Shown here piece by piece: positions 7,178 to 63,391 of a DNA stretch of 64,000 nucleotides. Numbering within the stretch: the first letter of the stretch is position 1; each line of letters starts with the position of its first letter. This DNA comes from a virus. Location of the stretch: positions 1-64,000 of the IMG/VR virus record IMGVR_UViG_3300009008_000009; one strand, written 5' to 3'. The notes below the pieces were generated by a model. It did no database searches. It had not been told where the DNA came from and saw only the letters and a list, made by a program, of their open reading frames with translations. The translations under genes were made by a program, and so were the position numbers.

Positions 7178-10100
7178 TCAGATACCACTACACCCCGTGT
7201 CCGTTCCACAGTTCGGGCACCGGTGGCATGCTCCGTTTGGAACCATTATAGTTCCACACCCACCACACACAGGGCCTGCGTCTGCGGAAACCATAGCCGG
7301 AACCGACTGGATGGGTTCCATGGAAACGTTGTGCATCGTTACGTTCGGCATTGCTGGACGAGACGCAGCAAACGATACGTTTTTAAATTCACCGTTACCG
7401 TTACCATTTCCGACAAGGTACTCTTCCGGTAACTCTTGGAAGGTGTGCATCTCCGGTACTTCAACTGGTGGGTTGTATGTCAGGTACAGCCACTTGAAAA
7501 TGTAATCTATAATACTGTCGGCTTCCTTGATGTCTTGGTTGGGGGTAAATCCATGCGGCTCAAATCTCATACCAGTAAATCGGTCTACAAAGGTCTGCAA
7601 TGGAATACCATGCTGGAACCCCAACGTAACCGCAGCGGCAAAGGCGTCAAGCAGCCCAGACAACGTTGACCCCTCCTTCGATATCACAACCATCAACGAA
7701 GATGGGAGACCGTCCGGATACTTACTCACCGACACGTACCCCTCGTGCCCGGAAACGTTGAACTTGTGCGTGATTGCCTTGGCGTCCCCGATAACCGGAC
7801 GTGGTAGTGGAATGACAACTTCGTACTCCGGAGTTGCGTCATCACCCTCGCTCTTCGACGCGTAGGGCTGAATTGCCTTACACCCGTCACGATAAATGGA
7901 CATCACCTTGATGCCCATTTCCCAGCCCTTCCAGTACACCTCTTCGATGTCCTCGACCGTGGCCGTATTTGGCATGTTGATAGTCTTCGAAACCGCTCCA
8001 GATAGGAAAGGTTGCACAGCTGCGACCATCTTCACATGGTCCATGTAGTGGATACTGCGCTCCCCGTTAAGCGGGGGAATGGAACAATCGAATACTGGCA
8101 GGTGGTCATCCTTCAAATCTGGGCAGTTCTCGATGGTACCGTTGTCCGTCACGTAGTTAGCAATACTCGCAACGGCATCGTCATCGTATCCGAGTGTGCG
8201 GAGGGCCTCGGGAACCAACCGGTTAACCATCTTCATCTCGCCGCCACCCACCAGACGTTTGAACTTAACAAGACCGAACTCCGGTTCAATGCCGGTGGTG
8301 TCAGCGTCCATCATAAACGCAATAGTGTTGTGGCTCACAAACCCAGATACAACATAGGTGTTATTCATCGGGACTGAAAGGTCAACGGTCTTTTGAATAC
8401 CAGCTTGGGTATTGGAAACTACAACATCGAAGTATACATCTCCGAGACTCAAAATCGCTGCGATTTTAGTTTTTCTTAGCTGCGGGTACTTACTTATCTT
8501 ATCCCTTGCCCATAGTAGATTTATCGCCGCAGTTTTTCTTACTGCAATGTCCTGCCTTACTTCACTTGGAAGACCAACAGACGCATCATAAAAGTCTTGC
8601 TGTATCACTGCATTCCTTATTGATATCCCGTGAGATTCATCGCCTGTACTGGTCGAAAGTCCGTCAGTGAGTCGGATTTTCTTCCTAGATGAAATAAATC
8701 CTATCTTATCAGCGTACACCCGTGCCGATCTTACGTTTGCCACACGAACTTCGTACCGCTGCTTATCACCAAATCTATCTCCACTTTCTGGCTGTTGCCT
8801 CCGTGTAGTCATAATACCCAGAGACTCTAAAACAACCTGAACCTGATTAACAAGAACAGGACTCACTGTTGAAAACGCTACGCTAGGAGTTCCTTTCACC
8901 AATGTTACTGTACCATCAGCGTCAAATAACCCACGGATGAAGGCACAAACAACACTTGTGCGAGACTTAAGAATGGAAATGGGTATTGATGCACCAAACG
9001 CCCCCTCCCCGTGGTTTCCTCTTGGTTTATCTGCAAGCCTGTTTGACTTAAGCCAGCGGACTAGTCTCCGAGATGGAATCGTTACAGTATGACAGCCTGA
9101 TCGTTCTTCAGACTGTATATGAACTCCAATACTTTCTGCCCATGACTCAAAAACTGAGTCTATATCTCTGTTATTATTAGGCACGGTAAGACAAAGACCA
9201 TAGTTATCCTTAGTGTATCCATTGCCAACATAGTAACCAATGACCTCAGCCAGACGTTCATCAAGGACGTCTGGAAAAGTAATAGAAGATTCATTTCCAT
9301 GTACTGGTGTTGAATCACCATGAAGAACTGTATAGGGCTTATCCATCAAAAGTTCTTCATGCCCACCAAGCCTGAAAACCGCGAGATCGCCCGGCTTGAT
9401 ATCTTGGAACTTCCTCCACACATACTCACCACATTCATCAATAATACGAATCTTGTGGCCGTAAGTACCTACTAGCGCATGCCCACGCTTCGTGGTAATT
9501 TCCATCACGTGGTCTTCTCCGTTAATGAAAAACTGAGAAGACTTCTCTACCGACTTCTCCTGCATGATATTAAGATCAAGGTCCTGCCACTTATCACCGT
9601 TTACGTCTCCAAGTACTCCCAGCGGAAGAATACCAGCAGATGACAATAACATAGTATCCGTAGCCAAACAGCCTGTAGGAGCCAGCAGCGTAAGCTGACC
9701 ATTTCGAATCCCAGCCCCATGGGCAATAGAATTGCATACGTCAGCAAGGATGGTATTTGCCATGTCATATATCGGAGCAGTAAATCCATCAAGATCAAGG
9801 CCAAGACTCTCTGCGGCTGTCCGATGCTTTTCCATAACCCGCAAGTACGGGTCTCTATTCTCTTCAAACAGATCAAATGGTCCGAGTTCATCTGCAACCT
9901 GACAGCTCATACTGGCGGCTGACGCGTGCATCAGCGCCGTTATAGCAGCGGCAACCCGACGTCCGTCCTCTGACCCATACGGAAGGCCCAGAACCATAAG
10001 CAGCCCACCGAGGTTGGCGTAACCAAGGCCCAACGGCCTGTGTGCCTTGCTGTTCCTTGCAATCTCCTCGGTCGGGTAGTCGACATTGGCAACCATGATC

Positions 10101-11269
10101 TCTTGTGCAAGGATGATGAGTTCCGATGCTCTACGGAAACGGTCCACTGCAAACGCACCGTCTTCGGTCTTGTACCTGATGAGGTTATGGCTGGCAAGGT
10201 TACAGGCAGAGTTATTGATGTAGTGATACTCAGCACACGGATTACTGGCACCGAAGTAATGAGTGTTACTGACTGGGTTCCACATGTTTATCAGGGTGTC
10301 AAACTGAAGCCCCGGGTCTCCGGTCTCCCATGCGTTCTCTGCGATGGACCGGAAAAGGTCGGCTGCGTGGATCGTGTCTGACGTCTCTCCGTCGGTCACC
10401 CGTTTGAGATCCCAGTCTGACTTGTCGGCCACGGCCCGCATGAAGTCGTCTCCAACCCGAACACTGTGATTGGCATTCTGGTAGGCTACAGTTCCGTACG
10501 CATCGCCGTCAAGGCCACTACTATACCCAGCCGCTAAAAGATCACGGGCCTTCTGGTCTTCCTTGGTCTTGCACTTAATGAAGTCTACGATGTCTGGGTG
10601 ATCAATGTTCAGGATGATAATCTTTGCCGCACGTCGAGTACGGCCACCCGACTTAATTACACCAGCAAAGGCGTCGTACCCCTTCATAAAGCTCACCGGG
10701 CCACTGGCCTTACCACCAGTTCCGGAAAGAGACTCGGTAGAACCACGAAGGGTGCTGAGGTTTACCCCAGCACCCGACCCGCCTTTGAATATGATTGCCT
10801 CGTCCCGGGCCAGCTTCATTATTGATTCCATGCTGTCATCAACCTCGTTGATGAAGCATGCACTGGCCTGCTGAGGACCGTCCGCACCAATATTAAACCA
10901 CACCGGACTGTTGAAGGCAAAGTACTGGTTGATCAACAGCCAAGTCAGCTCATCAGAGAATGCCTCGGCGTCGTCAGCATGGAAGTAACCGCCGTGTAAA
11001 CCCCACTGCGTAATGGTACTGACAACCCGATTAATAACCTGCTTGATCGACGTCTCGCGCTGGGACGTTCCGGGTTCACCACGAAAGTACTTAGAAACCG
11101 CGATGTTACTAGATTGATGTGACCACGTAATCGGAAATTCTACGTCTTCTTGCTTGAACACCGCTTCACCGTCAGCTCCGATAATCTTCGCGTCCCGCTT
11201 TTCCCATTCAATTTCGTCGTATGGATGAATGTCCGGATTGGAAAAGAGACGAGAGATACTTAACGCCAT
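7178..11269 (-). CDS. nrdJ: class II (adenosylcobalamin-dependent) ribonucleotide reductase with intein
   Basis: Reduces ribonucleotides to deoxyribonucleotides with a B12-derived thiyl radical, without oxygen or an NrdB partner. Numbered from the ATG at 11269 (AGGAGAT ribosome site; an upstream TTG extends the frame by seven codons), the active site is complete: C138, N343, C345 (radical cysteine, in NPCAEYHY), E347 and C356 in ACNLAS, matching the spacing of known NrdJ. Residues 534-981 are an intein inserted in the conserved APTG/TIAFMMD loop; removal leaves about 915 residues. The C-terminus has a CGGC...CPNC zinc ribbon plus a last cysteine for electron transfer. It supplies dNTPs for phage replication. 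Confidence 0.95.
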   Translation of the reverse strand: MALSISRLFSNPDIHPYDEIEWEKRDAKIIGADGEAVFKQEDVEFPITWSHQSSNIAVSKYFRGEPGTSQRETSIKQVINRVVSTITQWGLHGGYFHADDAEAFSDELTWLLINQYFAFNSPVWFNIGADGPQQASACFINEVDDSMESIMKLARDEAIIFKGGSGAGVNLSTLRGSTESLSGTGGKASGPVSFMKGYDAFAGVIKSGGRTRRAAKIIILNIDHPDIVDFIKCKTKEDQKARDLLAAGYSSGLDGDAYGTVAYQNANHSVRVGDDFMRAVADKSDWDLKRVTDGETSDTIHAADLFRSIAENAWETGDPGLQFDTLINMWNPVSNTHYFGASNPCAEYHYINNSACNLASHNLIRYKTEDGAFAVDRFRRASELIILAQEIMVANVDYPTEEIARNSKAHRPLGLGYANLGGLLMVLGLPYGSEDGRRVAAAITALMHASAASMSCQVADELGPFDLFEENRDPYLRVMEKHRTAAESLGLDLDGFTAPIYDMANTILADVCNSIAHGAGIRNGQLTLLAPTGCLATDTMLLSSAGILPLGVLGDVNGDKWQDLDLNIMQEKSVEKSSQFFINGEDHVMEITTKRGHALVGTYGHKIRIIDECGEYVWRKFQDIKPGDLAVFRLGGHEELLMDKPYTVLHGDSTPVHGNESSITFPDVLDERLAEVIGYYVGNGYTKDNYGLCLTVPNNNRDIDSVFESWAESIGVHIQSEERSGCHTVTIPSRRLVRWLKSNRLADKPRGNHGEGAFGASIPISILKSRTSVVCAFIRGLFDADGTVTLVKGTPSVAFSTVSPVLVNQVQVVLESLGIMTTRRQQPESGDRFGDKQRYEVRVANVRSARVYADKIGFISSRKKIRLTDGLSTSTGDESHGISIRNAVIQQDFYDASVGLPSEVRQDIAVRKTAAINLLWARDKISKYPQLRKTKIAAILSLGDVYFDVVVSNTQAGIQKTVDLSVPMNNTYVVSGFVSHNTIAFMMDADTTGIEPEFGLVKFKRLVGGGEMKMVNRLVPEALRTLGYDDDAVASIANYVTDNGTIENCPDLKDDHLPVFDCSIPPLNGERSIHYMDHVKMVAAVQPFLSGAVSKTINMPNTATVEDIEEVYWKGWEMGIKVMSIYRDGCKAIQPYASKSEGDDATPEYEVVIPLPRPVIGDAKAITHKFNVSGHEGYVSVSKYPDGLPSSLMVVISKEGSTLSGLLDAFAAAVTLGFQHGIPLQTFVDRFTGMRFEPHGFTPNQDIKEADSIIDYIFKWLYLTYNPPVEVPEMHTFQELPEEYLVGNGNGNGEFKNVSFAASRPAMPNVTMHNVSMEPIQSVPAMVSADAGPVCGGCGTIMVPNGACHRCPNCGTDTGCSGI
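8327..9670 (-). mobile_element. intein with LAGLIDADG homing endonuclease in nrdJ
   Basis: The element encodes 448 residues. It begins with Cys (CLATDTML) and ends with SHN, followed by Thr of the host protein, as needed for protein splicing. The B block is present as GTYGH. Two LAGLIDADG helices are visible: EVIGYYVGNGY and AFIRGLFDADG, the second with its catalytic Asp. The endonuclease therefore looks intact and could home into intein-free nrdJ genes. Insertion at this active-site loop is a known site in class II reductases. Confidence 0.93.
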
Positions 11270-11331
11270 GGGACATCTCCTATGGTACAAGATTTCTCAA
11301 GTGTTGTAGATAACCGAACGTAAGACTATGA

Positions 11332-15428: not shown

Positions 15429-15777
15429 TGGTGGAGACGTGGGGAATCGAACCCCAGTCCGAATGGTTTTACCAACCCCATTCTACGTGCGTAGTCTACT
15501 CAGACCGCAGACAGGTCATCACCGTGTATTTTGTGCTCCGGGACACGATAAAACCGGATCAACACAACCCAGAGGATTGAAGTGCCGACATTTGTCGACC
15601 GGAAATCCTGAGTCGCTATCGGCTTGCTACTCAGGGTCCGGGAGATGACTACTGTTTAAGCAGCCGCTCTCAAGGGAGTTTGCTCTTCAGCAATTATGGA
15701 TGTTCTGCCCTCTTGCAGTTGGACAGCCACTGGCACGCATGAAATCAACTTACCACCCGTCGAAACCAATCGTCCCC
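15429..15777 (-). ncRNA. ssrA: transfer-messenger RNA (tmRNA)
   Basis: Rescues ribosomes stalled on broken mRNA and tags the peptide for degradation. The 5' end GGGGACGATTGGTTTCGACG is the hallmark of ssrA. The 3' end has a T-arm (TGGGG TTCGATT CCCCA) and CGTCTCCACCA. The 5' GGGGACG pairs with CGTCTCC and keeps the G3-U70 wobble that alanyl-tRNA synthetase needs. The tag frame lies about 70 nt from the 5' end and ends in Ala-Ala-Ala. CCA is encoded. The length of 349 nt is normal. The host mostly supplies this RNA, so a phage copy is notable. Confidence 0.95.
15656..15709 (-). other. tmRNA tag-peptide reading frame
   Basis: On the minus strand the frame from GGC reads GRTSIIAEEQTPLRAAA and stops at TAA. 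The hydrophobic end LRAAA fits a ClpXP/ClpAP-type degradation tag. The resume codon is inferred; codons further upstream (CTG CAA GAG) are also open. Confidence 0.75.
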
Positions 15778-16544: not shown

Positions 16545-16549
16545 TTTGT

Positions 16550-16624
16550 CGGAGATACAGGATTCGAACCTGTGGCCCCCTGCTCCCAAAGCAGGTGCGC
16601 TCTACCGGACTGCGCCAATCTCCG
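16550..16624 (-). tRNA. tRNA-Pro(UGG)
   Basis: Seventy-five nt. The acceptor CGGAGAT pairs with ATCTCCG. The anticodon arm is CCTGC TTTGGGA GCAGG with anticodon TGG, and the T-arm is ACAGG TTCGAAT CCTGT. The C1-G72 pair is the known identity element of bacterial tRNA-Pro. CCA is not encoded. UGG reads most Pro codons and may support phage protein synthesis. Confidence 0.97.
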
Positions 16625-20987: not shown

Positions 20988-21878
20988 TCATCCCTCAAGG
21001 TCAAGTGCTATCTTCCGCAGCTTAGCGCGGTGCTTGTGCTCGATATCCTGAGCCTTCTCGAACAGACTCTGGTCCATGTGGTTGGTGACCGTCCCTTGAA
21101 TCAGGTCGATAAGCACAGTTGGGTTGAGTGCGTCCAGCTCCCATGAACTGTATCCATACTCTTCAACGTACCCATCCGCCCGGGAGTCAGAAAGTTTTGT
21201 TGGGTTTGGCGGTGGCTGGTACTCCTCCACCTGATCATAGTTCAGCGCGATGCGATCAACCTTCAGTGCTGGAAATCCGTGCGTGGTAAGAAAGGTGTCC
21301 ATGCGCTTTACGATGTCACGGGTCATGTCCATACCGCTGGGGTCATGGTCGCCGAGATGGATAATAACCGGTTTGCGATTTGCGGCCCGTTCCATGATCC
21401 GACGAGCTGCCACCCACATCTCGGACAGCGAAACGTAGCCCCGGCAAGAGAACCAAGTGACGTCCAAGGGCTTGCACGCGGCCTCAAGGATACCAGCCAG
21501 CGCTTCCTTCTCAATCCAAACCTCGACGTAGAAGGGCTGGTCGGCCCACTTATCGATGGCGAATTGATCCGCACACGCCCTGACAATTGACGCCGGTCCG
21601 GACCAGTGGCTGTTCTCTTCCTTCTTCCGGGTGCGGTCTTCGATGGCTTCCCAGTCAATGAGCCCAGCCAGCCGTGCATCTGCGACGACCTTGCCCAACT
21701 TCTTGTACTCACGATGGGTGTTCGGAATCAGGTCTCGTGCCACGAACTGGTAGTAAAGCTGCCTGAGTGTGAGCTTGAGATCGTCTGCCAGATACTCATC
21801 GATGATGGTATTTGCGTGCTCAATCAACTGCACGGACTTGGTAGTGAACCTTTTAGGCACATAATCAATCTTTGGCAT
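20988..21878 (-). CDS. Spo11/topoisomerase VI A-like TOPRIM protein
   Basis: Looks like a stand-alone relative of the DNA-cutting subunit of topoisomerase VI. Numbered from the ATG at 21878, an N-terminal winged-helix part contains LTLRQLYYQFVAR, where the second Tyr lies where Spo11/Top6A has the catalytic Tyr (RDxYY). A TOPRIM domain follows: VWIEKEAL gives the Glu and HLGDHDPSGMDM the DxD. No Top6B partner or GHKL ATPase is seen in the window. Related phage proteins are usually annotated only as hypothetical. Cutting activity is inferred. Overlaps upstream gene by 14 bp. Confidence 0.6.
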   Translation of the reverse strand: MPKIDYVPKRFTTKSVQLIEHANTIIDEYLADDLKLTLRQLYYQFVARDLIPNTHREYKKLGKVVADARLAGLIDWEAIEDRTRKKEENSHWSGPASIVRACADQFAIDKWADQPFYVEVWIEKEALAGILEAACKPLDVTWFSCRGYVSLSEMWVAARRIMERAANRKPVIIHLGDHDPSGMDMTRDIVKRMDTFLTTHGFPALKVDRIALNYDQVEEYQPPPNPTKLSDSRADGYVEEYGYSSWELDALNPTVLIDLIQGTVTNHMDQSLFEKAQDIEHKHRAKLRKIALDLEG

Positions 21879-22353
21879 TGTCGTCCTCACGTGGTTCGAG
21901 CTTGTTGACCTGCTCAATGATTGCCGCTGCTACTTCCGGAGTTCCCCGCTTGCTGGGAATGTGAACGGTCATACAATCTGGCCCACACATGTCAACGATG
22001 CAGCCCTCGTCCTCCAGCATCTTGACCGTGGTCGCGTTAAGCTGTGTCATCATCTTCGCAGCCGCGTCTGCCTGCCTGATATAGTGATCGGTTGCTTGCT
22101 GTGGAATCTCGTGTGGAATGGTAATCGACCGAAATCCGATGTCCACCGATGGGTCGTCAATCATGAACCAGATATTGAGATCGTCATCGATCAACTTGAA
22201 GGCTATCTGCAGGCTCAGCAGCGCCTTGACCGCATGGTCCTCGCTATCGAAGTAGAACGGGCCGTCAAGGGTCCGACCTAACTCTGTGTCTGGCAGCGGG
22301 TCGTTGGTAATGAACCCGTCGAATACGATTCTGTCAATCTTCAGTTCTGGCAT
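21865..22353 (-). CDS. hypothetical protein
   Basis: Not recognised; 162 residues from MPELKIDR behind GAGGATTGATACA. It is acidic, with a mixed alpha/beta pattern and no Cys pair. The shared overlap suggests coupled translation with the TOPRIM gene. Confidence 0.65.
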   Translation of the reverse strand: MPELKIDRIVFDGFITNDPLPDTELGRTLDGPFYFDSEDHAVKALLSLQIAFKLIDDDLNIWFMIDDPSVDIGFRSITIPHEIPQQATDHYIRQADAAAKMMTQLNATTVKMLEDEGCIVDMCGPDCMTVHIPSKRGTPEVAAAIIEQVNKLEPREDDNAKD

Positions 22354-28791: not shown

Positions 28792-30435
<1,644 letters not shown>

Positions 30436-30479
30436 CCTTCCTAACTCCTGAGTAATATCACATGAAGTACAACTTAGAC

Positions 30480-30779
30480 TTACTTCTCGATCACACCGAG
30501 AATGTCAGTGCGGTTGACCAACAGATACTTCTTGTTGTCGATGTCGACTTCCGTTCCGCCGTACTTCGCGAACAGAATCTGATCACCAACATTGACGATC
30601 TGTGACAACGGTTTACGGTTCTCACGCGTGTCAGTAATGTCGTCACCAACGGCGACTACCTCACCGATCTGAGGTTGTTCCTTGGAAACCGTGTCTGGGA
30701 TGATAATCCCACCGCTGGTTTTCTCGTCCTTCTCTACTACGGTGAGAAGAACACGTTCATCAATCGGACGTACGTTCAT
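30480..30779 (-). CDS. groES: co-chaperonin GroES
   Basis: A 99-residue GroES: the N-terminal [10 protein letters not shown] strand, a mobile loop with GGIIIPDT (binds GroEL), GEVVAVGDD, and the closing [26 protein letters not shown]. The length and order match bacterial GroES. It lies 44 bp upstream of groEL and has an AGAAGGAGGAG ribosome site, so the pair is one operon. Confidence 0.97.
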
Positions 30780-32174: not shown

Positions 32175-32794
32175 CGGATAGTACCAAGAGTCCGATGAGT
32201 TGTACCAGTCTTCCCAACCCCCGGAGGAAGTTCAGAAAATCCAATGTCAGTGGAAAGATCAACATGTATAGAATGTTGTTTCCGCATAGACACCGGATCA
32301 ATCACCGTCCCCCTCTCTGGTATTGTACTCGTAGCTAGATAGCGTGTCTTATACTCAGGGTTTCGCAACCGCTGGTCACGCCGTGAATGTGGATACATCC
32401 GTTTGAATATCCCCCGAATGGTCTCTGGCTTGACATCGCGGTGATACAGCATCATACAGTAGTTAGCAATGTCGACCACGTCGCCCTTGGGAATGTGCTC
32501 AACAAACATCCGAACAAGATCTTCTTCTGAGCAGATCTTGGGGTCGTCCCATCCGTGCTTGCCGTTCTCCTCACTCTGCCACTCCATCTCTTCGTTCATG
32601 GCAACTGAGAACTCCAGCACCGCCTGCTCGTCCTTACCGTCCATGGGAACTTGAGTATCGATCCAGTCACTGAGTCTAGAAACGGCGAAGAAAGTATCTT
32701 CTGGAATGTCCTCGATCTTCTTATCGCGGTCGAAAAGTACCGCTTCCAACAAGGGACGCAACTTGAACAACATGGTCTTCAACATGGTAGTCAT
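32171..32794 (-). CDS. MazG-superfamily-like protein
   Basis: A 207-residue protein. FSVAMNEEMEWQSEENGKHG followed by DVVDIANYCMMLYHRDV matches the helical all-alpha NTP pyrophosphohydrolase-like family found in phages, where E...E and E/D-xx-D residues bind metal. The expected EExxE helix is only partly kept (SEEDLVRMFVEHI). The C-terminal 70 residues are a basic extension not usual in the family. It may control (d)NTP pools; activity is uncertain. Confidence 0.5.
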   Translation of the reverse strand: MTTMLKTMLFKLRPLLEAVLFDRDKKIEDIPEDTFFAVSRLSDWIDTQVPMDGKDEQAVLEFSVAMNEEMEWQSEENGKHGWDDPKICSEEDLVRMFVEHIPKGDVVDIANYCMMLYHRDVKPETIRGIFKRMYPHSRRDQRLRNPEYKTRYLATSTIPERGTVIDPVSMRKQHSIHVDLSTDIGFSELPPGVGKTGTTHRTLGTIR

Positions 32795-33159
32795 GTGCCT
32801 TTTCTCCCAACTAGTTGATCAACCCCAGCTGCCTGTCCGACTTCAACCGTGCGCCATTCGCTTGAGTTAGCCATACGAAAGTAAACGGAAGCGCCGGACG
32901 GTGCCTCGAGCGCGGCCACTACGGCACTACCCATTGCAAGAGTGTTTCCGGTTCCCGCAGGGACAGTCTCTTCATCAATCACCCGACCATCGAGTACGGT
33001 AACAATATGATGTGCATCAGTTGCGTAATGTGAAAGTTCCTGCTCAGGTGAGAAATCTTTCTGAAGCAAGGTGTCCTCCGAAGGGTTGTCGACGCCGAAA
33101 CCAGCGAGCTGGTCCTTAAGCTGACCTAACTGGCGGAACCAGACATGACCGTACGTCAC
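32791..33159 (-). CDS. hypothetical protein
   Basis: Not recognised; 122 residues, beta-rich from residue 50 on (HHIVTVLDGRVIDEETVPAG), perhaps a small jelly-roll or SH3-like fold. Overlaps 32171-32794 by 4 bp. Confidence 0.65.
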   Translation of the reverse strand: MTYGHVWFRQLGQLKDQLAGFGVDNPSEDTLLQKDFSPEQELSHYATDAHHIVTVLDGRVIDEETVPAGTGNTLAMGSAVVAALEAPSGASVYFRMANSSEWRTVEVGQAAGVDQLVGRKGT

Positions 33160-33195: not shown

Positions 33196-33750
33196 TTACT
33201 TACCGACCTTCTCAAACTTAACCACAATGAAGCGACCGAATGGTCCCTTGTTCTGCGGACGGTAGTCTCCAATGCCAATCCGACGTCCGCCGTACACGAG
33301 GGCTTCGTTTACCGTCTCCGGCTTGAAGTCCTCCTCATCGAACTCAATGTCGAACTCCAACGCCCACTCTGGAAGATGAGGACGATGGCGAACAATTCTC
33401 CCCTTGGTTGCCCGAACAACCACCGGACGTGAGTCGATCTGCCAACTCTGATTTTCATGGGGAATGGAGAAGGGAGTAATCACAATGGCACCAGAAGCGT
33501 ACAGGGATGAGAGCGTTGAACGCCCCTGCTTCTGCTTCTTACCTGCCTCGGTCAACATCGCAATAATGTGCTGCGAAGGCTGATAGATTGTACCATCTTC
33601 CATACGGTACAACGCATTTGCAGCCTGTGCCTTGTAGTCCGGGTTCTGCTTCTTCTGTTTCGGACCCGTGTCCATCTGCTCTTCGATGGGGAACCTGTTA
33701 TGTAACATCCCCGGTTCAATACCCTCGAGTCGTACATGGTAAGTCAGCAT
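33196..33750 (-). CDS. RAMP-like (Cas7-type fold) protein of unknown function
   Basis: Not a named family, but the layout resembles RAMP/Cas7 RNA-binding proteins: an N-terminal strand LTYHVRLEGIEPGMLHNR, then DGTIYQPSQHIIAMLTEAG where Cas7-type proteins have a 'P-S-x-x-x-G' helix start, and a C-terminal glycine-rich loop GGRRIGIGDYRPQ...GPFGRF. Its leader RNA is an array of sixteen GG-marked 5-nt units, so the protein may bind that RNA or its DNA as an oligomer. This link is inference. It has a CGGAGATGATGAAAG ribosome site; no other cas-like gene is near. Confidence 0.55.
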   Translation of the reverse strand: MLTYHVRLEGIEPGMLHNRFPIEEQMDTGPKQKKQNPDYKAQAANALYRMEDGTIYQPSQHIIAMLTEAGKKQKQGRSTLSSLYASGAIVITPFSIPHENQSWQIDSRPVVVRATKGRIVRHRPHLPEWALEFDIEFDEEDFKPETVNEALVYGGRRIGIGDYRPQNKGPFGRFIVVKFEKVGK

Positions 33751-33778
33751 CTTTCATCATCTCCGTTTGTTAAAACTT

Positions 33779-33858
33779 CCGTACCTTACCTAACCTAGCC
33801 TGACCAATACTCTCCTCGCCCAGCGTTACCGAGCCAGACAGGACCATACCAGGCCGAC
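33779..33858 (-). repeat. array A: sixteen 5-nt units marked by GG (leader RNA)
   Basis: On the plus strand CC recurs every 5 bases: CCGTA CCTTA CCTAA CCTAG and so on for sixteen units, thirteen of them with CC. On the minus (transcribed) strand this is NNNGG repeated. The three other bases vary, so this is a spaced binding-site array, not a simple repeat. The predicted transcript start lies at its first unit. Confidence 0.9.
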
Positions 33859-33862
33859 TTTT

Positions 33863-33890
33863 ATGCTATGAGACTCTTGTTGACTTACAA
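33863..33890 (-). promoter_or_regulatory. promoter between the two GG arrays
   Basis: TTGTAA, 16 nt, TAGCAT on the minus strand. Counting about 7 nt from the -10 box puts transcript start at 33856-33858, the first unit of array A. Confidence 0.55.
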
Positions 33891-33893
33891 ATC

Positions 33894-33963
33894 CCGTACC
33901 TTTCCTTACCAGACCGGACCCCTCCTTGCCATACCTTACCGGACCCCGCCCCGCAATGCCAGA
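33894..33963 (-). repeat. array B: fourteen 5-nt units marked by GG
   Basis: The same pattern as array A: CCGTA CCTTT CCTTA CCAGA and so on, thirteen of fourteen units with CC on the plus strand. Both arrays begin with CCGTA and are in the same 5-nt phase (115 bp apart). It lies upstream of the promoter, in the 3' region of the UDG-like gene. Confidence 0.9.
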
Positions 33964-34010
33964 TCAAATCCGCCCAGTTTGTATAACAACTTTCGCTTAG
34001 CAACGAAAGA

Positions 34011-49365: not shown

Positions 49366-52300
49366 TTATGCTGCTGTGTCTAATACCGCCAGTTCCTGTA
49401 GGAATCTTGACGGTTGGAACTCTCTGCTCATCCCCGTGCGCCTGCCGCAGCTACTCAGGAATGCCCGCTCCTCGGCCCGGGTTACGGCTACGTACGTCAC
49501 CCTGCGCTCTTCCTCGATACCCTTGTCGCCTTCCATCAGGGAGCGCCAGTGGGGCAGGGTTCCGTCGCTGAGTCCGATTACGAATACGGTCTTGAACTCG
49601 AGCCCCTTACTACGATGGACCGTCAGCAGTGTGATGGCCCTGCGTTCGGTGCTGTCTGACTCCGGCTTGGCTGCGCTGGATGCGTAAATCAGGAATCCGG
49701 TGAGGTCGTCGAAGTCGATCATCTTACCCTGAAGGGTGTCGAGGTTCTCAATCTTCGGGTTCTCTACGCTGCTGGAGAAGTTCTTGGAGATGAACTTGTC
49801 GTATCCGAACATCGACCGGATGTTGGAAATCAGCCTGCTCAGGTCTGGTTTCATCCGGTAGGCATCGAGCAGCTGCTTGAGCTTGCTGGCAAACTGCTGG
49901 GCGTTCCGGCTCATGTAGCTCTTGCTGTATCCTCCGCGCCTGAGCGCCTCGTAAGGGTCTTCACCGTTCTTCACCCGGCGTGCCCACTCCTGTGTAAAGG
50001 CTCGGCCCAGATACCGGTTCGGGCGGTTGATTATCCGTTCGAATGCGCCGTAGTCGGTTTCGAATCCCCACTTGGTCTTGAGCAGTCTGGTTACCGCTTC
50101 CTGTGTGGTGTCGTTCTCGGTGTCAATCCAGTCGATGACCGCCATGTAGGCAACCATGTCCTTTATCTCTTCGCGCCCGTAGAAGCCGGTGGAACCGAGG
50201 ATTACGTAGGGCAGGCCCTTACGTATCAATGCGTCCTCAATGGCTGCGCTCTGGGCGTTCGTGCGGTAAAGTACCGCAAAGTCCCCGGGGCTCGCTCCGC
50301 CTTCAATCTCGTCGCGCATGATGCCGGTTACCTCGTCCGCTTCCATGACATCGTCAGGGTAGTGGGCAAGGAACTCTACTCCGCCTGTGGCTGCGTTGTT
50401 GGCGACACAATCCGGTGCGTCGAATGCTGCGTGCTGAATGATACTGTTGCCTGCTTCTACTACTTGCGAGCTCGACCGGTAGTTGCGGCTCATGTAGAGC
50501 ACCTTCCCATTGGGAAAGTGGTCGGGGAAGTTAATCGTCAGGTCGACCTGTGCTCCCCGGAATCCGTAGATGCTGTTGTGAACGACAACGTCGTTTGCAA
50601 AGTAAAGATGTGTTTGGTCCACCTCAAGATCATAAACATCAACTTCACCAGTAATAACCTCAATATCAACAATCTCGTCCGGAACAATCGTGTAGTTCAC
50701 CCTGTTGTATGGAGGTCTTTTAGCCTTAAGTGGTTCATCCAGTTTAATAGCTCGGAACAAACGAAACCCACGGTGAAGACCTCGGGCAGGAACTACAATT
50801 ACTTGACGGTGACTTTTCATGTGAGGAATATGAACGTTCTCCTGAACGCAACCACCACATTCTTCTGCGAGTTTTCGAGCGTACTGTTGAGCTGAAGAGT
50901 AAGATGCAAAACTCCTCCGAGTCTGACTCCCATCAACATCAAGAACAACCCCGTGTAAAATAGAGGAACGATCTATGTACTTACGAGCACGTTTACTTTT
51001 TAGGTCAGTATGAAGTTTAACGGAGTCATTGAGATTTAGATAAACCACAGGAAGTCGTCCGGGATCGAACTCACTTACTTGTCTTTTTGCACCGTTGTTA
51101 GACACTGGAACGTTGTCAACGTCGTTAAGTTCAGGAAAGTCGGAGAGCATCCGGGAAACACCACTCAAATGATGATCACCGAGCTTTCCATAAAGTTCGT
51201 ACAAAGTCTCTTCAGATATTACTTCACCACCATGTCGATGATAAGTCTGAGTGGGAATACAGTACACTAATGAAATCCAAGACTCAAACAGAAGGGCATC
51301 TCTTTTGGTCTTGAATGACCTAAGAATCTTCATATGGTCAGGGCGCTCTCCTGTTCTCCGAGACCAAATGTTCTTTGTAACCCCAACTCTCCACCCGAAA
51401 TTTCCCTTTTTCATGACGTAGACATAGTACCATTCAGCAGGATTATTGTATCCAACAATCACAGAATGAACAGGTATTCGATGTTCCGGGGTTGTCAAAA
51501 ACTCAGTCCCCGAAGCTAGTTTTATTTTCAGAAGAGTTTCTTTCTTAGTTTTGTAAACTTCATTCACAAAAGACTTTGTGACGCCAAGTTTGCGAACTGG
51601 TGTAGCAACACTGTCCCCCTTCACAATAGTCTCAATCGCCTTCGCAGTCCCGTCCCCCATCCGAACCATTGTACCAGCAGGAAAACATTGTCGATGATCT
51701 CCGACCGCAAAAAGGTTACCGTGAGTCTCGGCGAGGTTCGCGACAATCTTGGCCTGTAGGGTGTCGGTGTCTTGGAACTCGTCTACCATTACCCACTGAA
51801 AGCGCTTCGACCACTTCCGGGCAATGGCTGGCTTGTCCCTGAACATCTTATAGGTCAGCACAATCATGTCGTTGAAGTCGATGAACTTTCCGCGTGAGTC
51901 GCCGCGCTTCTTGGCCTTGATGTACTCTCCCCAGATCTGGTAAGTCAGGGCGTCTCGGGGTGTTGAGTCCTCACCGTAGAAAAGCTCCACCGCTGTTTCG
52001 TAAGTGTAGCCTGCACTGACAGCGCTGGAAATCTGGCCGAGGTAAAGCAGAGGCTCCCATGCATCCGACTCTTCGTCGTATCCGAGCTTCTTCAAGATCT
52101 CCTCGATCATGCGCCGGGCCTTGAAGTCGTCCAAGGTCTGAATGCGTGGTGCGTAATCGGGATCGTAGCTAATCAGGTCTTCGCGCAGCACCCGATAGCA
52201 GAAGGAGTGCATGGTGCTGATCCAAGGTTTGTTCGGTTCGAACTTACCAATCTCGATACCGAGCTGCTGACCGAGGCGGTTCTTCATCTCGTCAGCTGCC

Positions 52301-52506
52301 TTATTGGTAAAGGTAAAGGCAAGAATCTCGCCCTGTGGAATACCTGTGTCTTGGATGAGATGAACAATCTTAGAGGTGAGCACGCGGGTCTTACCCGACC
52401 CGGCTGCTGCTACCAGTAAGGTTGTCCCGGTGGACTTTACTGCTGCCATCTGATCCGCGTCAAGGTCGACCGCAGCGGCTGGGTCGGTTTGGCGGGTAAG
52501 TTTCAT
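49366..52506 (-). CDS. UvrD/PcrA-type superfamily 1 helicase with intein
   Basis: Unwinds DNA 3' to 5' using ATP. Motif I AAAGSGKT at residues 33-40, motif Ia AFTFTNKAADEM, motif II MVDEFQDTD near 240, then VGDHRQ interrupted by the intein, and SIYGFRGA (motif III) after it. Motif IV (YRSSSQVV) and motifs V/VI (LLTVHRSKGLEFKTVFV, RRVTYVAVTRAEE) follow. Without the intein the protein has 675 residues, the usual size. The gene has a GCGGAGGAACCG ribosome site and its own promoter. Role in phage replication or repair. Confidence 0.95.
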   Translation of the reverse strand: MKLTRQTDPAAAVDLDADQMAAVKSTGTTLLVAAAGSGKTRVLTSKIVHLIQDTGIPQGEILAFTFTNKAADEMKNRLGQQLGIEIGKFEPNKPWISTMHSFCYRVLREDLISYDPDYAPRIQTLDDFKARRMIEEILKKLGYDEESDAWEPLLYLGQISSAVSAGYTYETAVELFYGEDSTPRDALTYQIWGEYIKAKKRGDSRGKFIDFNDMIVLTYKMFRDKPAIARKWSKRFQWVMVDEFQDTDTLQAKIVANLAETHGNLFAVGDHRQCFPAGTMVRMGDGTAKAIETIVKGDSVATPVRKLGVTKSFVNEVYKTKKETLLKIKLASGTEFLTTPEHRIPVHSVIVGYNNPAEWYYVYVMKKGNFGWRVGVTKNIWSRRTGERPDHMKILRSFKTKRDALLFESWISLVYCIPTQTYHRHGGEVISEETLYELYGKLGDHHLSGVSRMLSDFPELNDVDNVPVSNNGAKRQVSEFDPGRLPVVYLNLNDSVKLHTDLKSKRARKYIDRSSILHGVVLDVDGSQTRRSFASYSSAQQYARKLAEECGGCVQENVHIPHMKSHRQVIVVPARGLHRGFRLFRAIKLDEPLKAKRPPYNRVNYTIVPDEIVDIEVITGEVDVYDLEVDQTHLYFANDVVVHNSIYGFRGAQVDLTINFPDHFPNGKVLYMSRNYRSSSQVVEAGNSIIQHAAFDAPDCVANNAATGGVEFLAHYPDDVMEADEVTGIMRDEIEGGASPGDFAVLYRTNAQSAAIEDALIRKGLPYVILGSTGFYGREEIKDMVAYMAVIDWIDTENDTTQEAVTRLLKTKWGFETDYGAFERIINRPNRYLGRAFTQEWARRVKNGEDPYEALRRGGYSKSYMSRNAQQFASKLKQLLDAYRMKPDLSRLISNIRSMFGYDKFISKNFSSSVENPKIENLDTLQGKMIDFDDLTGFLIYASSAAKPESDSTERRAITLLTVHRSKGLEFKTVFVIGLSDGTLPHWRSLMEGDKGIEEERRVTYVAVTRAEERAFLSSCGRRTGMSREFQPSRFLQELAVLDTAA
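50575..51687 (-). mobile_element. intein with GIY-YIG-like nuclease in the helicase gene
   Basis: 371 residues (274-644) starting with Cys (CFPAGTMVRMGDG) and ending VVHN before Ser of QSIYGFRGA. Splicing blocks are intact (TTPEHRI for block B). Between them lies WYYVYVMKKG...WRVGVTKNIWSRR and later LFESWISLVYCIPT, the pattern of a GIY-YIG nuclease (Y-x-Y, x-V-G, Arg, catalytic Glu) instead of LAGLIDADG. Inteins with this insert are known in UvrD-type helicases from the motif pattern, but are rarer than LAGLIDADG ones. Confidence 0.9.
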
Positions 52507-59523: not shown

Positions 59524-59876
59524 TCCTCAGCCTCACTTTCCACGTACTTTTCAAGCAAGTACGCCACCACCTCTTCGGCGTTTGTAATGTCTGTTTCCCA
59601 GTTTCCACGAACTTCGACGTAGACTGGAAGATTGACCTTCACACTTGCATACTCAAGGTAGTCCGGGTCAGAGTAAGTCTTCTTGACCCGATTATACTCA
59701 CCGTCACCAGCGGGAATGTTAGCCCACACAGTCGGACGCTCGAACAGGAGCTTGCAAATCTTCTCGCCCTGCTTGCTGGTGGACGCCCACACTGGTGCGT
59801 CACCGACCTTGTGAACTACAACCCCCAGCGGCTTGGTACGCGGAGTTTCATTGAGTACAACAAAGTGCCAGATCAT
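59520..59876 (-). CDS. hypothetical protein
   Basis: Not recognised; 118 residues, alpha/beta, with an acidic C-terminus. 4-bp ATGA overlaps on both sides tie it to the portal gene and to 58687-59523. Confidence 0.65.
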   Translation of the reverse strand: MIWHFVVLNETPRTKPLGVVVHKVGDAPVWASTSKQGEKICKLLFERPTVWANIPAGDGEYNRVKKTYSDPDYLEYASVKVNLPVYVEVRGNWETDITNAEEVVAYLLEKYVESEAEE

Positions 59877-62800
59877 TCCTCCTCCTCGCCGCCCTGCCGA
59901 TATTCCTTGCCGTCAAAGACATGGTCACGGAGAAGCTCGTACATGTTATTGTCCAAGAACTCCAGCTTGTAGGAGTCGGTCTGGTATAGACTGTAAGACT
60001 CAATGAAGTACTCCTCGGCGCTGGTGGCAGCATTTGGATTGATAAACCCAACACCCTCACCAGATCGCGGAGCACCTATGAGCTCAATTCCATCGTCCTC
60101 TATGCGCATGCTCTGCAGCGCAATCTTGGAATCGTAAAGATCGTTTACGGTATCCTGTGCCTCGCTGGCCAAGTCAACAAACTCGCGGCGGGCGCGTTCC
60201 TTTACCACAAACCACGACGGGTCGTCCTCATAGAATGAGAACCCACTGATCAGCAAGCCGTCGTCGGTCTCGTATGATGAAATGTTGCCCCGCTGCGTCT
60301 CGCGAAGCTCATCAAGCTCAACATCGATGCGTAGGTCGGATGGTGGCTTGCCATCACGCTCTTCAATCTCGTCCAGAATGCGCTGTCGTTCCTTCTCAGC
60401 CCACGCACGTGTATCTACGATGTCAGGCACAACGTTAATCGAGGTGTCCTCGATTGGATTCTCCTTAAGGGCCAGCGCGATATCGTCAAGGAGCTCGGTC
60501 GGCACAGACTCAACCGTGGTGCTGCCCTCAGAAACGGTGCCGGTGTTTTCGAACTCAGCCCCCGGAGGTGGAATGAAGTCGTCCCATTCAGCGAATCCAA
60601 CAACTGGCTCGTAACTACCACGACAGTTTGGATGGCCTTCAAACTCCTTCGTCTCTGGGTTCTGGATCAGTGGATACTCAAGCTCAAGAACCTTGGAGAG
60701 ATCAAACTCGAGACCGTCCACCGACCGGCAGTAATCACAAGTCCTGAAGTCCTTTATCTCACGGCGAATGACCTTCTTCACCCCAGCGTCGTACCACTCT
60801 TGAAGCGCAGCCTTGCTGTAGATGTTCATCGTCTCGGTCCGGACGATGCGCTGGTAGATGTTACGCTGGTCGTTCCATACCTCGCCAAGACGGTCTGAAA
60901 GCTCCTCCTCGCTCAGCTTCTCGAAGTCCGGATCGTCGAACTCCTTAAACAGCGCCCGGGTGATATCCTCGATGGGCTCGTCAGCCTTGCTGTGCAACAT
61001 CTCTCGAATGCGGGAAATCACCTCTTCGGATACAGTGGAAACGTTCTGAAGCGCACGGTCGACTGCAGCATCCAAGTTTCGCTGGCGCTGGTCATCGAAC
61101 GCCGCCCGCTTGGCGGAAAGGTAACGGCGACCTCGTCTGGACCTACGCAGGGCCTTAACAACCGTGTCCTGTGCCTTCTCGTAGATGCTCCGGATACGGG
61201 TGGCAAAGTCTGCACCCCCCTCTTCGGAAACGTCGTCCAAGTTGTCACGGAACGCGTGCTCCAAGTCCTCAATGCGGATGTGACCACGTTCTTTCCATCG
61301 ATCAAGCAATCTGGATACGAAGTCTTCTTGCTTCTTATCGAAGGTGTCGATGAGGTTATTCTCGGCGGCAAGGACATCAGACTGGGATGACTTATCCATC
61401 CGGGATGTCATCAGCTTGGTCTGCCAGTCGTTCATCGAGTCCATGTGATCGTCGAGACGAAGTATCTGTGCTCGGAATGATCTACGGTGAACGGTGGGGA
61501 GCTTGGCACGCTTATGGTTAAGCTCAGCTCGCCGTGACTTTCCCGGCGTCTTCTTAGCCCCCGACTCTGTGACGTTCTCGCCAGACTCACCACCCACCGG
61601 AGCCTGCGTTCCCGGCTCCTTTGGCGGTGATGGTGACGTGGGTGGTGGAACTCCGCCACCACTCTCTGATTCTGGTACGTCGGGTGGGGCTGGTGCGGAT
61701 GACTCATCGCTGTCCATCGTCACACCAGCAGGGTCTTCCTTACCCTCATCAACCTTCTCAACATCCTGCTCTTCCTTCGGAAGGAATGTGGACTTCAAGG
61801 TCTTCAATATATCCCTAAAGCCTTCGAGTGCGGTACGTCCCGCAGTGGAGAAGTACTGCTTTCTGGCCTCACCAAGATTGCGGTCGGCCAGAGTACCCTG
61901 CTCCTTATCAAGCCATGTCAGGGCCTCATCGTAGTCAACGTCAAGTGCGTCACAAACAATCTTGAGTGGTAAGTCGCCCCGGTCACGGAGCTGGATCAGT
62001 GAAGATCGAATTGACGCATCGTCAGTCAGGTTCTGTTTATGACGCCAGTTGAAGTCCGGAACGACCGGCTCTTGCACCTCCGTCCTCACCTTGTGGTCAA
62101 GGTCGGCGGACTTTCGTACGTAAAAGTCGTTAGCCAGCGCTGTGGGTAGGAAGACTTTACGCTTGTACACATCTTCCATCATGTTGCGGATCACCAAGTA
62201 CCGTGACATCAGCGTCCGAAGTGCAACACTGGCTGTAGCGAAGTTCGGACCTTCCCCGGAAGTCAACGACTTATTCGTAAACAGTCGCGTCATGATCCGT
62301 TTGTCAATGGCGTCCAGCTCGGGGTTGATTGGCAGTACCTTACCCGTCGACCCAATCACATCGGTGGAAACAGCGTGGTGGGTTATGATGGTAAACATCG
62401 GGTCGTTGTTCGCGGCCAGTAAAAGATCTCGGAAGTTCTGAAGGTCGTTATTAGTCGGCATGTACCCGTCAGGGCCGGGTGTTCCGAGCTTCCACACCCA
62501 CTTCGGGGTGATGTGCCCCTGTGCGATTGCGTTCTGGGCCAGCCGGAGGGTATCACCGTAGAGTAAGTCCTTGATGATCCCCAAGATAATCGACGTGCCT
62601 CGCAAGTCCCACGGCATTGCGCGGTTAGCGACCAGTTCGGTGGAGAAGGAATCGAGCTCTACGTTGACCCCGCTGTTAACAGCGAACCGCACCTCAGGGT
62701 GAATGAGCTCAGCAACCCGACGATCATAGGGGTCGTCCGACTTAACCAAGTTCCGCAGAGGTGCGTCTGGGGCCAGCTCGTAGTGCTCAGCTGGTTCACC

Positions 62801-63391
62801 ATCGTCAGAGTGAGCAAGATAATGACCAACAACCCGAACGTAGGCTGTATTAATGAAAGTCTGATCTACAAATCGATTATAGTCTTCAGACCACCACGAG
62901 TACGGCATCACCTCGCCGAACAACCACCAGCACTTGAGAAAGTTATAGAGGTTGTCAAGCAAGTTCATGTCGTCTGCCATGGTCTCATAGGTGTTCAATA
63001 TCTCCGGGTCTTCAACACCAGTAAGAGAGAATCGTGACAGTGGAAGCTGAGAGTGAATCTCGATAGCGTTACCAACCAGTGGATGAAACTTGAAGTAGTA
63101 TTCAATCCACTCCATTAACACCGGATTCGGATCTCCAACAGTTCCGGGCTGCTGGGGAATGTAAAAGTTGTCAACGTTTAAACGAGGGTCTTTGATTGGT
63201 GGTAGGAGATTCTGAATGTCAGCTGACGCAGTGCTACTCATACCGGCCACAAGACCACCAGCCCCGGGGCGAGACGGTACATGGACTCCGGCTTTATCAA
63301 ACACACCACGAGATGAATCGGCGCCTACCCGGGCATTGCGCTCTATCACATCCTTCTGTGGAAACGGGCGTTTTTCATCACCCATAGTCAA
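59873..63391 (-). CDS. portal protein fused to Mu F-like head morphogenesis protein
   Basis: A 1172-residue fusion. Residues 1-560 have the portal pattern: PNPVLMEWIEYYFKFHPLVG, then FKCWWLFGEVMP and LYGDTLRLAQNAIA, with a long helical stem. A Pro/Gly/Ser-rich linker (570-640) follows. The MuF domain lies around 660-960, with NIYQRIVRTETMNIYSKAA, C885/C888 (CDYC) and HPNCRGS at 920-925, as in Mu F/SPP1 gp7. The last 200 residues end with EEYFIESYSLYQTD, like the end of MuF-attached metallopeptidases but without HExxH. The portal is the DNA gate of the head. Confidence 0.88.
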   Translation of the reverse strand: MTMGDEKRPFPQKDVIERNARVGADSSRGVFDKAGVHVPSRPGAGGLVAGMSSTASADIQNLLPPIKDPRLNVDNFYIPQQPGTVGDPNPVLMEWIEYYFKFHPLVGNAIEIHSQLPLSRFSLTGVEDPEILNTYETMADDMNLLDNLYNFLKCWWLFGEVMPYSWWSEDYNRFVDQTFINTAYVRVVGHYLAHSDDGEPAEHYELAPDAPLRNLVKSDDPYDRRVAELIHPEVRFAVNSGVNVELDSFSTELVANRAMPWDLRGTSIILGIIKDLLYGDTLRLAQNAIAQGHITPKWVWKLGTPGPDGYMPTNNDLQNFRDLLLAANNDPMFTIITHHAVSTDVIGSTGKVLPINPELDAIDKRIMTRLFTNKSLTSGEGPNFATASVALRTLMSRYLVIRNMMEDVYKRKVFLPTALANDFYVRKSADLDHKVRTEVQEPVVPDFNWRHKQNLTDDASIRSSLIQLRDRGDLPLKIVCDALDVDYDEALTWLDKEQGTLADRNLGEARKQYFSTAGRTALEGFRDILKTLKSTFLPKEEQDVEKVDEGKEDPAGVTMDSDESSAPAPPDVPESESGGGVPPPTSPSPPKEPGTQAPVGGESGENVTESGAKKTPGKSRRAELNHKRAKLPTVHRRSFRAQILRLDDHMDSMNDWQTKLMTSRMDKSSQSDVLAAENNLIDTFDKKQEDFVSRLLDRWKERGHIRIEDLEHAFRDNLDDVSEEGGADFATRIRSIYEKAQDTVVKALRRSRRGRRYLSAKRAAFDDQRQRNLDAAVDRALQNVSTVSEEVISRIREMLHSKADEPIEDITRALFKEFDDPDFEKLSEEELSDRLGEVWNDQRNIYQRIVRTETMNIYSKAALQEWYDAGVKKVIRREIKDFRTCDYCRSVDGLEFDLSKVLELEYPLIQNPETKEFEGHPNCRGSYEPVVGFAEWDDFIPPPGAEFENTGTVSEGSTTVESVPTELLDDIALALKENPIEDTSINVVPDIVDTRAWAEKERQRILDEIEERDGKPPSDLRIDVELDELRETQRGNISSYETDDGLLISGFSFYEDDPSWFVVKERARREFVDLASEAQDTVNDLYDSKIALQSMRIEDDGIELIGAPRSGEGVGFINPNAATSAEEYFIESYSLYQTDSYKLEFLDNNMYELLRDHVFDGKEYRQGGEEEE

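Follow-up and report, generated by a model that had tools for sequence, protein, structure and literature searches.

A predicted VIPR guide-RNA locus with two tandem arrays of YNNGG units upstream of vipr in a large uncultured phage

Background

The VIPR (Viral Interference Programmable Repeat) system combines Vipr, an ancestral RAMP, with vrRNAs in which 9-16 YNNGG units precede a tail (PMC13142463, bioRxiv 2026). In these RNAs the GGY is unpaired and the NN pairs read DNA with one base skipped, and the complex represses the transcription of competing elements; the VIPR of the Escherichia phage SUSP1 (PDB 36pp) is a DNA-recognition system by experiment (PMC13142463). Two further groups of RNA-guided systems invite comparison with the locus described here. 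The class 1 CRISPR RAMPs (Cas7/Csm3 of types III and VII) resemble its protein in fold, glycine-rich loop and presumed oligomerization on a guide RNA, but our locus is accompanied by neither a CRISPR array nor cas genes, and its units are 5-nt GGYNN elements rather than a contiguous spacer. TIGR-Tas (PMC12045711), also found in phages, is reported to combine short guides in arrays with one adjacent RNA-guided protein, whereas in our case the protein belongs to the RAMPs and the arrays are of the GGY/NN type.

The locus lies in a stretch of 64,000 nucleotides, hereafter the window, taken from a virus record of 127,741 bases, and a portal/head gene is found at 59873-63391. We interpret the locus as a VIPR guide-RNA locus with two predicted vrRNAs beside vipr in a large uncultured phage, a reading to which we assign a probability of roughly 95%. 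We file it as a member of VIPR because the main defining features that can be tested from sequence were found in it.

Results and discussion

Two in-phase arrays of GG-marked units

The 5-nt periodicity of GG on the minus strand, which a preliminary description had reported together with its counts and coordinates, was reproduced on recounting and exceeds what shuffled sequences yield. In the transcript direction the units of array A are GTCGG CCTGG TATGG TCCTG TCTGG CTCGG TAACG CTGGG CGAGG AGAGT ATTGG TCAGG CTAGG TTAGG TAAGG TACGG, with GG in 13 of 16, and those of array B are TCTGG CATTG CGGGG CGGGG TCCGG TAAGG TATGG CAAGG AGGGG TCCGG TCTGG TAAGG AAAGG TACGG, with GG in 13 of 14; the four units without it (three in A, one in B; 26 of 30 carry GG) each retain a single G. 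Array B can be extended by three weaker in-phase units, to 17. The best stretch of 12 units has GG in all 12, as against a maximum of 7 in sixty second-order Markov shuffles of 64 kb and of 9 in 2000 local shuffles of the 260-nt region. The autocorrelation of GG at lag 5, proposed earlier as a check, likewise stands out, at 22 for the region against a local-shuffle mean of 5.6 and maximum of 19. No second array of such quality occurs anywhere in the 127,741-base record, and the array region has no Rfam match. A simple tandem repeat was ruled out since the array units differ from one another, as the preliminary description had held.

Along the minus strand, from 5' to 3', the order is hairpin, array B, a 35-nt spacer, array A, ribosome-binding site and the gene itself (Table 1). 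The two arrays had been described as opening with the same unit 23 periods apart. This is true of the plus strand, where CCGTA stands at 33779 and again 115 nt away at 33894, but not of the transcript direction, in which the common unit TACGG is the last of each array. A promoter that had been placed between the arrays was not found on searching. Both arrays finish with GGNAAGGTACGG, after which their sequences diverge, with weak or no folding downstream; in the related loci L067 and L097, GGNAAGGTAC is found at module ends.

Table 1. Parts of the predicted VIPR locus and the genes that follow it (window coordinates)
Feature	Position	Strand	Evidence
Hairpin of 8 bp, after the stop of the upstream gene and before array B; may act as a terminator or in processing	33990..34009	-	z -3.0
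Array B, 14 units (33963-33894) and a further 3 weaker ones in phase; variable tract of a predicted vrRNA	33894..33978	-	unit split
Spacer following array B, possible vrRNA 3' tail	33859..33893	-	weak hairpin, z -1.4
Array A, 16 YNNGG units, 3 of them with one G; variable tract of a predicted vrRNA	33779..33858	-	unit split, one-G statistics
Short 3' flank of array A (aagTTTTAACAAACGGAG...), leading into the vipr ribosome-binding site	33751..33778	-	layout as in relative L116
vipr, 184-aa RAMP/Cas7-like protein, phrog_4652	33196..33750	-	profile and single-protein match to 36pp_D, AF2 model, G-rich loop
Next co-directional ORF, 122 aa, no family	32791..33159	-	family searches
Following ORF, 207 aa	32171..32794	-	only PHROGs of unknown function, best phrog_8298

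The downstream gene encodes a Vipr homolog

The preliminary description had likened the protein encoded downstream to RAMP/Cas7 proteins, and both structure and profile comparisons bear this out. An AF2 model (pLDDT 82.8, pTM 0.79) used as a Foldseek query retrieved chains from Csm complexes of type III-A and from the type VII effector (E 3e-6 to 1e-5, TM about 0.6; 3e-6 for the Csm chains), while a profile of the family recovered PDB 36pp chain D, the SUSP1 Vipr protein, with E 8.8e-43 as its one strong match in the Protein Data Bank. The window protein on its own also reaches 36pp chain D (E 2.8e-7), and with SUSP1 Vipr it shares 26% identity across 154 aa (E 5e-15). The alignment features an N-terminal IxGxxPLxxH motif and a C-terminal AGxxxGxGDxRP...GRF motif, the latter being the RAMP-type glycine-rich loop. 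In PHROGs the family corresponds to phrog_4652, of unknown function, which was matched by all 46 aligned members; Pfam and PADLOC gave no match for the window's vipr, Pfam being without any family for it, and a protein-pattern search of IMG/VR retrieved no close relatives. In a phylogenetic tree the window Vipr clusters with those of L116, L007, L090, L067/L097 and L109 (support 0.91), apart from SUSP1. By homology with SUSP1 Vipr, the protein is likely to bind the GG-periodic RNA, probably as an oligomer, in line with the earlier suggestion.

The array pattern is associated with Vipr across viral contigs

Viral contigs were scanned for (GGNNN)8GG using DNA only and no protein information. This yielded at least 120 stretches and, once simple repeats were removed, at least 97 loci with non-simple arrays. 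A six-frame HMM search detected a relative of the window protein in 72 of the 97 array loci listed as against none of 38 control loci (335 kb, fetched by unrelated patterns); this HMM is circular to the extent that it was built on members from the same array loci, but an initial plain BLAST with the window protein had already found about 45 of those members. Nearly all of the Vipr relatives were obtained via the array pattern itself. In the vipr-bearing loci listed, 152 of 154 arrays are on the sense strand of vipr, 96% of these at a distance of up to 1 kb from it. The unit consensus, drawn from the first 67 locus-strands, is GGYNN, with C (74%) or T (21%) at position 3 (95% Y) and positions 4-5 nearly free. 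Many arrays show variable tracts set between conserved separators, with hypervariable NN pairs.

Three of the 25 remaining records listed have the Vipr gene elsewhere or at their edge. Vipr was undetectable in the GGYNN-array records L037 (G005, 105 kb), L100 (G019, 105 kb), L046 (56 kb), L077 (51 kb) and about 18 more. Such records might be fragments, might encode very divergent Viprs, or might carry orphan vrRNAs that borrow the Vipr of another element. In L083, L036, L066 and L078 the junction between one GGYNN tract and the next often consists of a constant unit and then a 4-nt shift, for example GGCACCGCA, seen six times in L083; such junctions probably correspond to the vrRNA arrays, staggered or overlapping, that the description of VIPR mentions (PMC13142463).

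One-G units, decoded guides and the question of decay

Read as NN pairs, array A gives the guide TC CT AT CC CT TC AA TG GA GA TT CA TA TA AA AC and array B gives (CT CG TT) CT AT GG GG CC AA AT AA GG CC CT AA AA AC, the bracketed pairs being those of the weaker units. The window's own genome held no self-target above shuffled guides with skips of 0-3. Four exact scans of IMG/VR viral contigs with half-guides of A and B, and one partial exact scan of GTDB genomes with part of guide A, returned matches at chance level, none of which extended beyond the seed. Cross-targeting among the array loci, again with skips of 0-3, revealed nothing above about 85% except one array common to L067 and L097. 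Two control decodes were made: LESphi2 guide 3 gave 0 matches, and SUSP1 vrRNA1 gave two near-identical matches at 19/24 that are indistinguishable from chance, so that the skip rule, which is taken over from PMC13142463, was not reproduced. The target negative is weak, since exact seeds admit no mismatches and both control decodes failed.

These results have some bearing on whether the locus could be decaying, with vipr and the arrays as remnants that guide nothing. Such a view would accommodate both the lack of a target in the scans made and the four array units without full GG; however, the vipr ORF is intact with all of its conserved residues, and one-G units prove to be a normal component of these arrays. 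Among single in-phase non-GG interruptions in the other loci listed, 130 of 136 (96%) keep one G and 88% keep the Y; for the NN pairs of these units, leaving aside those that are GG, the share containing a G is 49%. One-G units also occur in the experimentally active vrRNAs of SUSP1. The main text of the VIPR preprint gives GGY as maintained in all vrRNAs inspected (PMC13142463). Units without GG are thus not random decay, and we regard degeneration of the locus as improbable. The pattern suggests that each Vipr subunit can do without either G of the pair provided that the other is present, and annotation tools should accept units that carry GG, or no fewer than one G, usually followed by Y.

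Arrangement of the locus and regulatory alternatives

The locus resembles that of SUSP1, which we extracted for comparison, in combining a homologous Vipr with sense-strand GGYNN arrays that flank vipr. It differs in several respects: SUSP1 has one vrRNA upstream and three downstream of vipr, whereas both arrays of the window are upstream; each SUSP1 vrRNA bears a long structured tail, whereas the tails here are short and weakly structured; and vap1 follows vipr in SUSP1, whereas no vap was recognised here, the adjoining ORFs matching neither a named family nor the ORFs of other array loci. A scan of the adjacent genes revealed no cas-like or other defence match except a DNA methyltransferase, and no CRISPR-like tandem repeat was reported at the locus. 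Array A reaches the ribosome-binding site of vipr through a short TTTTAAC flank, and L116 is alike in this.

The preliminary description had compared the spaced GG sites in the leader with those bound by TRAP. An alternative reading is a leader regulator of the TRAP kind, in which the encoded protein, as an oligomer, attaches to the GG repeats of its 5' leader and controls its own expression with no guide role. TRAP recognises short sites spaced about 5 nt apart in a leader, and both that spacing and the position of the arrays directly upstream of the gene, with A leading into its ribosome-binding site, recall such an arrangement. The fold, however, is that of a RAMP rather than of TRAP, the motif is one GG per unit rather than AG/NAG triplets, and the variable bases appear to carry a code, being hypervariable beside conserved separators. 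Moreover, arrays in the relatives listed lie mostly downstream of the gene (112, as against 24 upstream), and SUSP1 VIPR recognises DNA by experiment, its arrays serving as guide RNAs rather than as an attenuator (PMC13142463). Self-regulation as the sole function is consequently very unlikely.

A guide function could nevertheless be joined to feedback of this kind. The flank of array A, here as in L116, is short, of TTTTAA type and without a long structured tail, and in the clade of the window the leader of the vipr mRNA might itself contain the guide RNA; Vipr binding to array A might then serve two ends, maturation of the guide and arrest of vipr translation. We mention this as a speculative idea of low probability.

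The idea that the arrays are two-tetrad G-quadruplexes acting as structural or regulatory elements in DNA or RNA is scarcely credible: that motif does accommodate GG with 3-nt loops, but it requires no strict 5-nt phase, no pyrimidine after GG and no linkage to a RAMP gene, and it leaves the retention of phase and of one G in the interrupted units unaccounted for.

Proposed mode of action

The VIPR reading is based on the arrays, their adjacency to vipr, the homology and fold of the protein, and the association of the array with the family. The arrays, with 16 and 14 (to 17) in-phase units on the strand of vipr and directly upstream of it, provide the vrRNA feature; transcription, RNP formation, the skip rule and repression at this locus are expected by analogy with the studied SUSP1 system. 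Two tandem noncoding RNAs of in-phase YNNGG units would be produced just upstream of vipr from the same strand. Vipr would coat them with about one subunit per five bases, as the 5-nt period and the RAMP fold suggest, gripping the GGY and exposing the NN pairs. These pairs would jointly read double-stranded DNA as xNNxNN..., skipping one base per pair, and the bound complex would repress transcription, most likely that of a competing phage, satellite or prophage.

Other features of the phage genome

The window contains a phage-borne tmRNA at 15429-15777 (minus strand), which matches Rfam RF00023 at 122 bits and carries the tag AEEQTPLRAAA; not far from it, at 16548-16624 (minus), is a tRNA-Pro. 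Inteins are present in a class II ribonucleotide reductase (7178-11290, minus), with a LAGLIDADG domain, and in a UvrD-type helicase (49366-52506, minus). A GroEL gene (Pfam Cpn60) is encoded at 28792-30779 (minus), and a small ORF just upstream of it appears GroES-like by eye. The protein encoded at 20988-21917 (minus) matches phrog_6247, 'DNA topoisomerase', with E 1.7e-105 and has no Pfam match. The record starts with a perfect 15-bp tandem repeat of 5.7 copies (1-86).

Conclusions

VIPR, a guide system whose code is noncontiguous, was described only in 2026 and may predate CRISPR. The locus reported here places it in an uncultured phage of 127.7 kb, with a Vipr whose clade is separate from that of the tested SUSP1 type, and in a layout that is apparently vap-poor and possibly leader-embedded. 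The accompanying survey yields a simple DNA signature by which VIPR loci can be fetched without recourse to protein homology.
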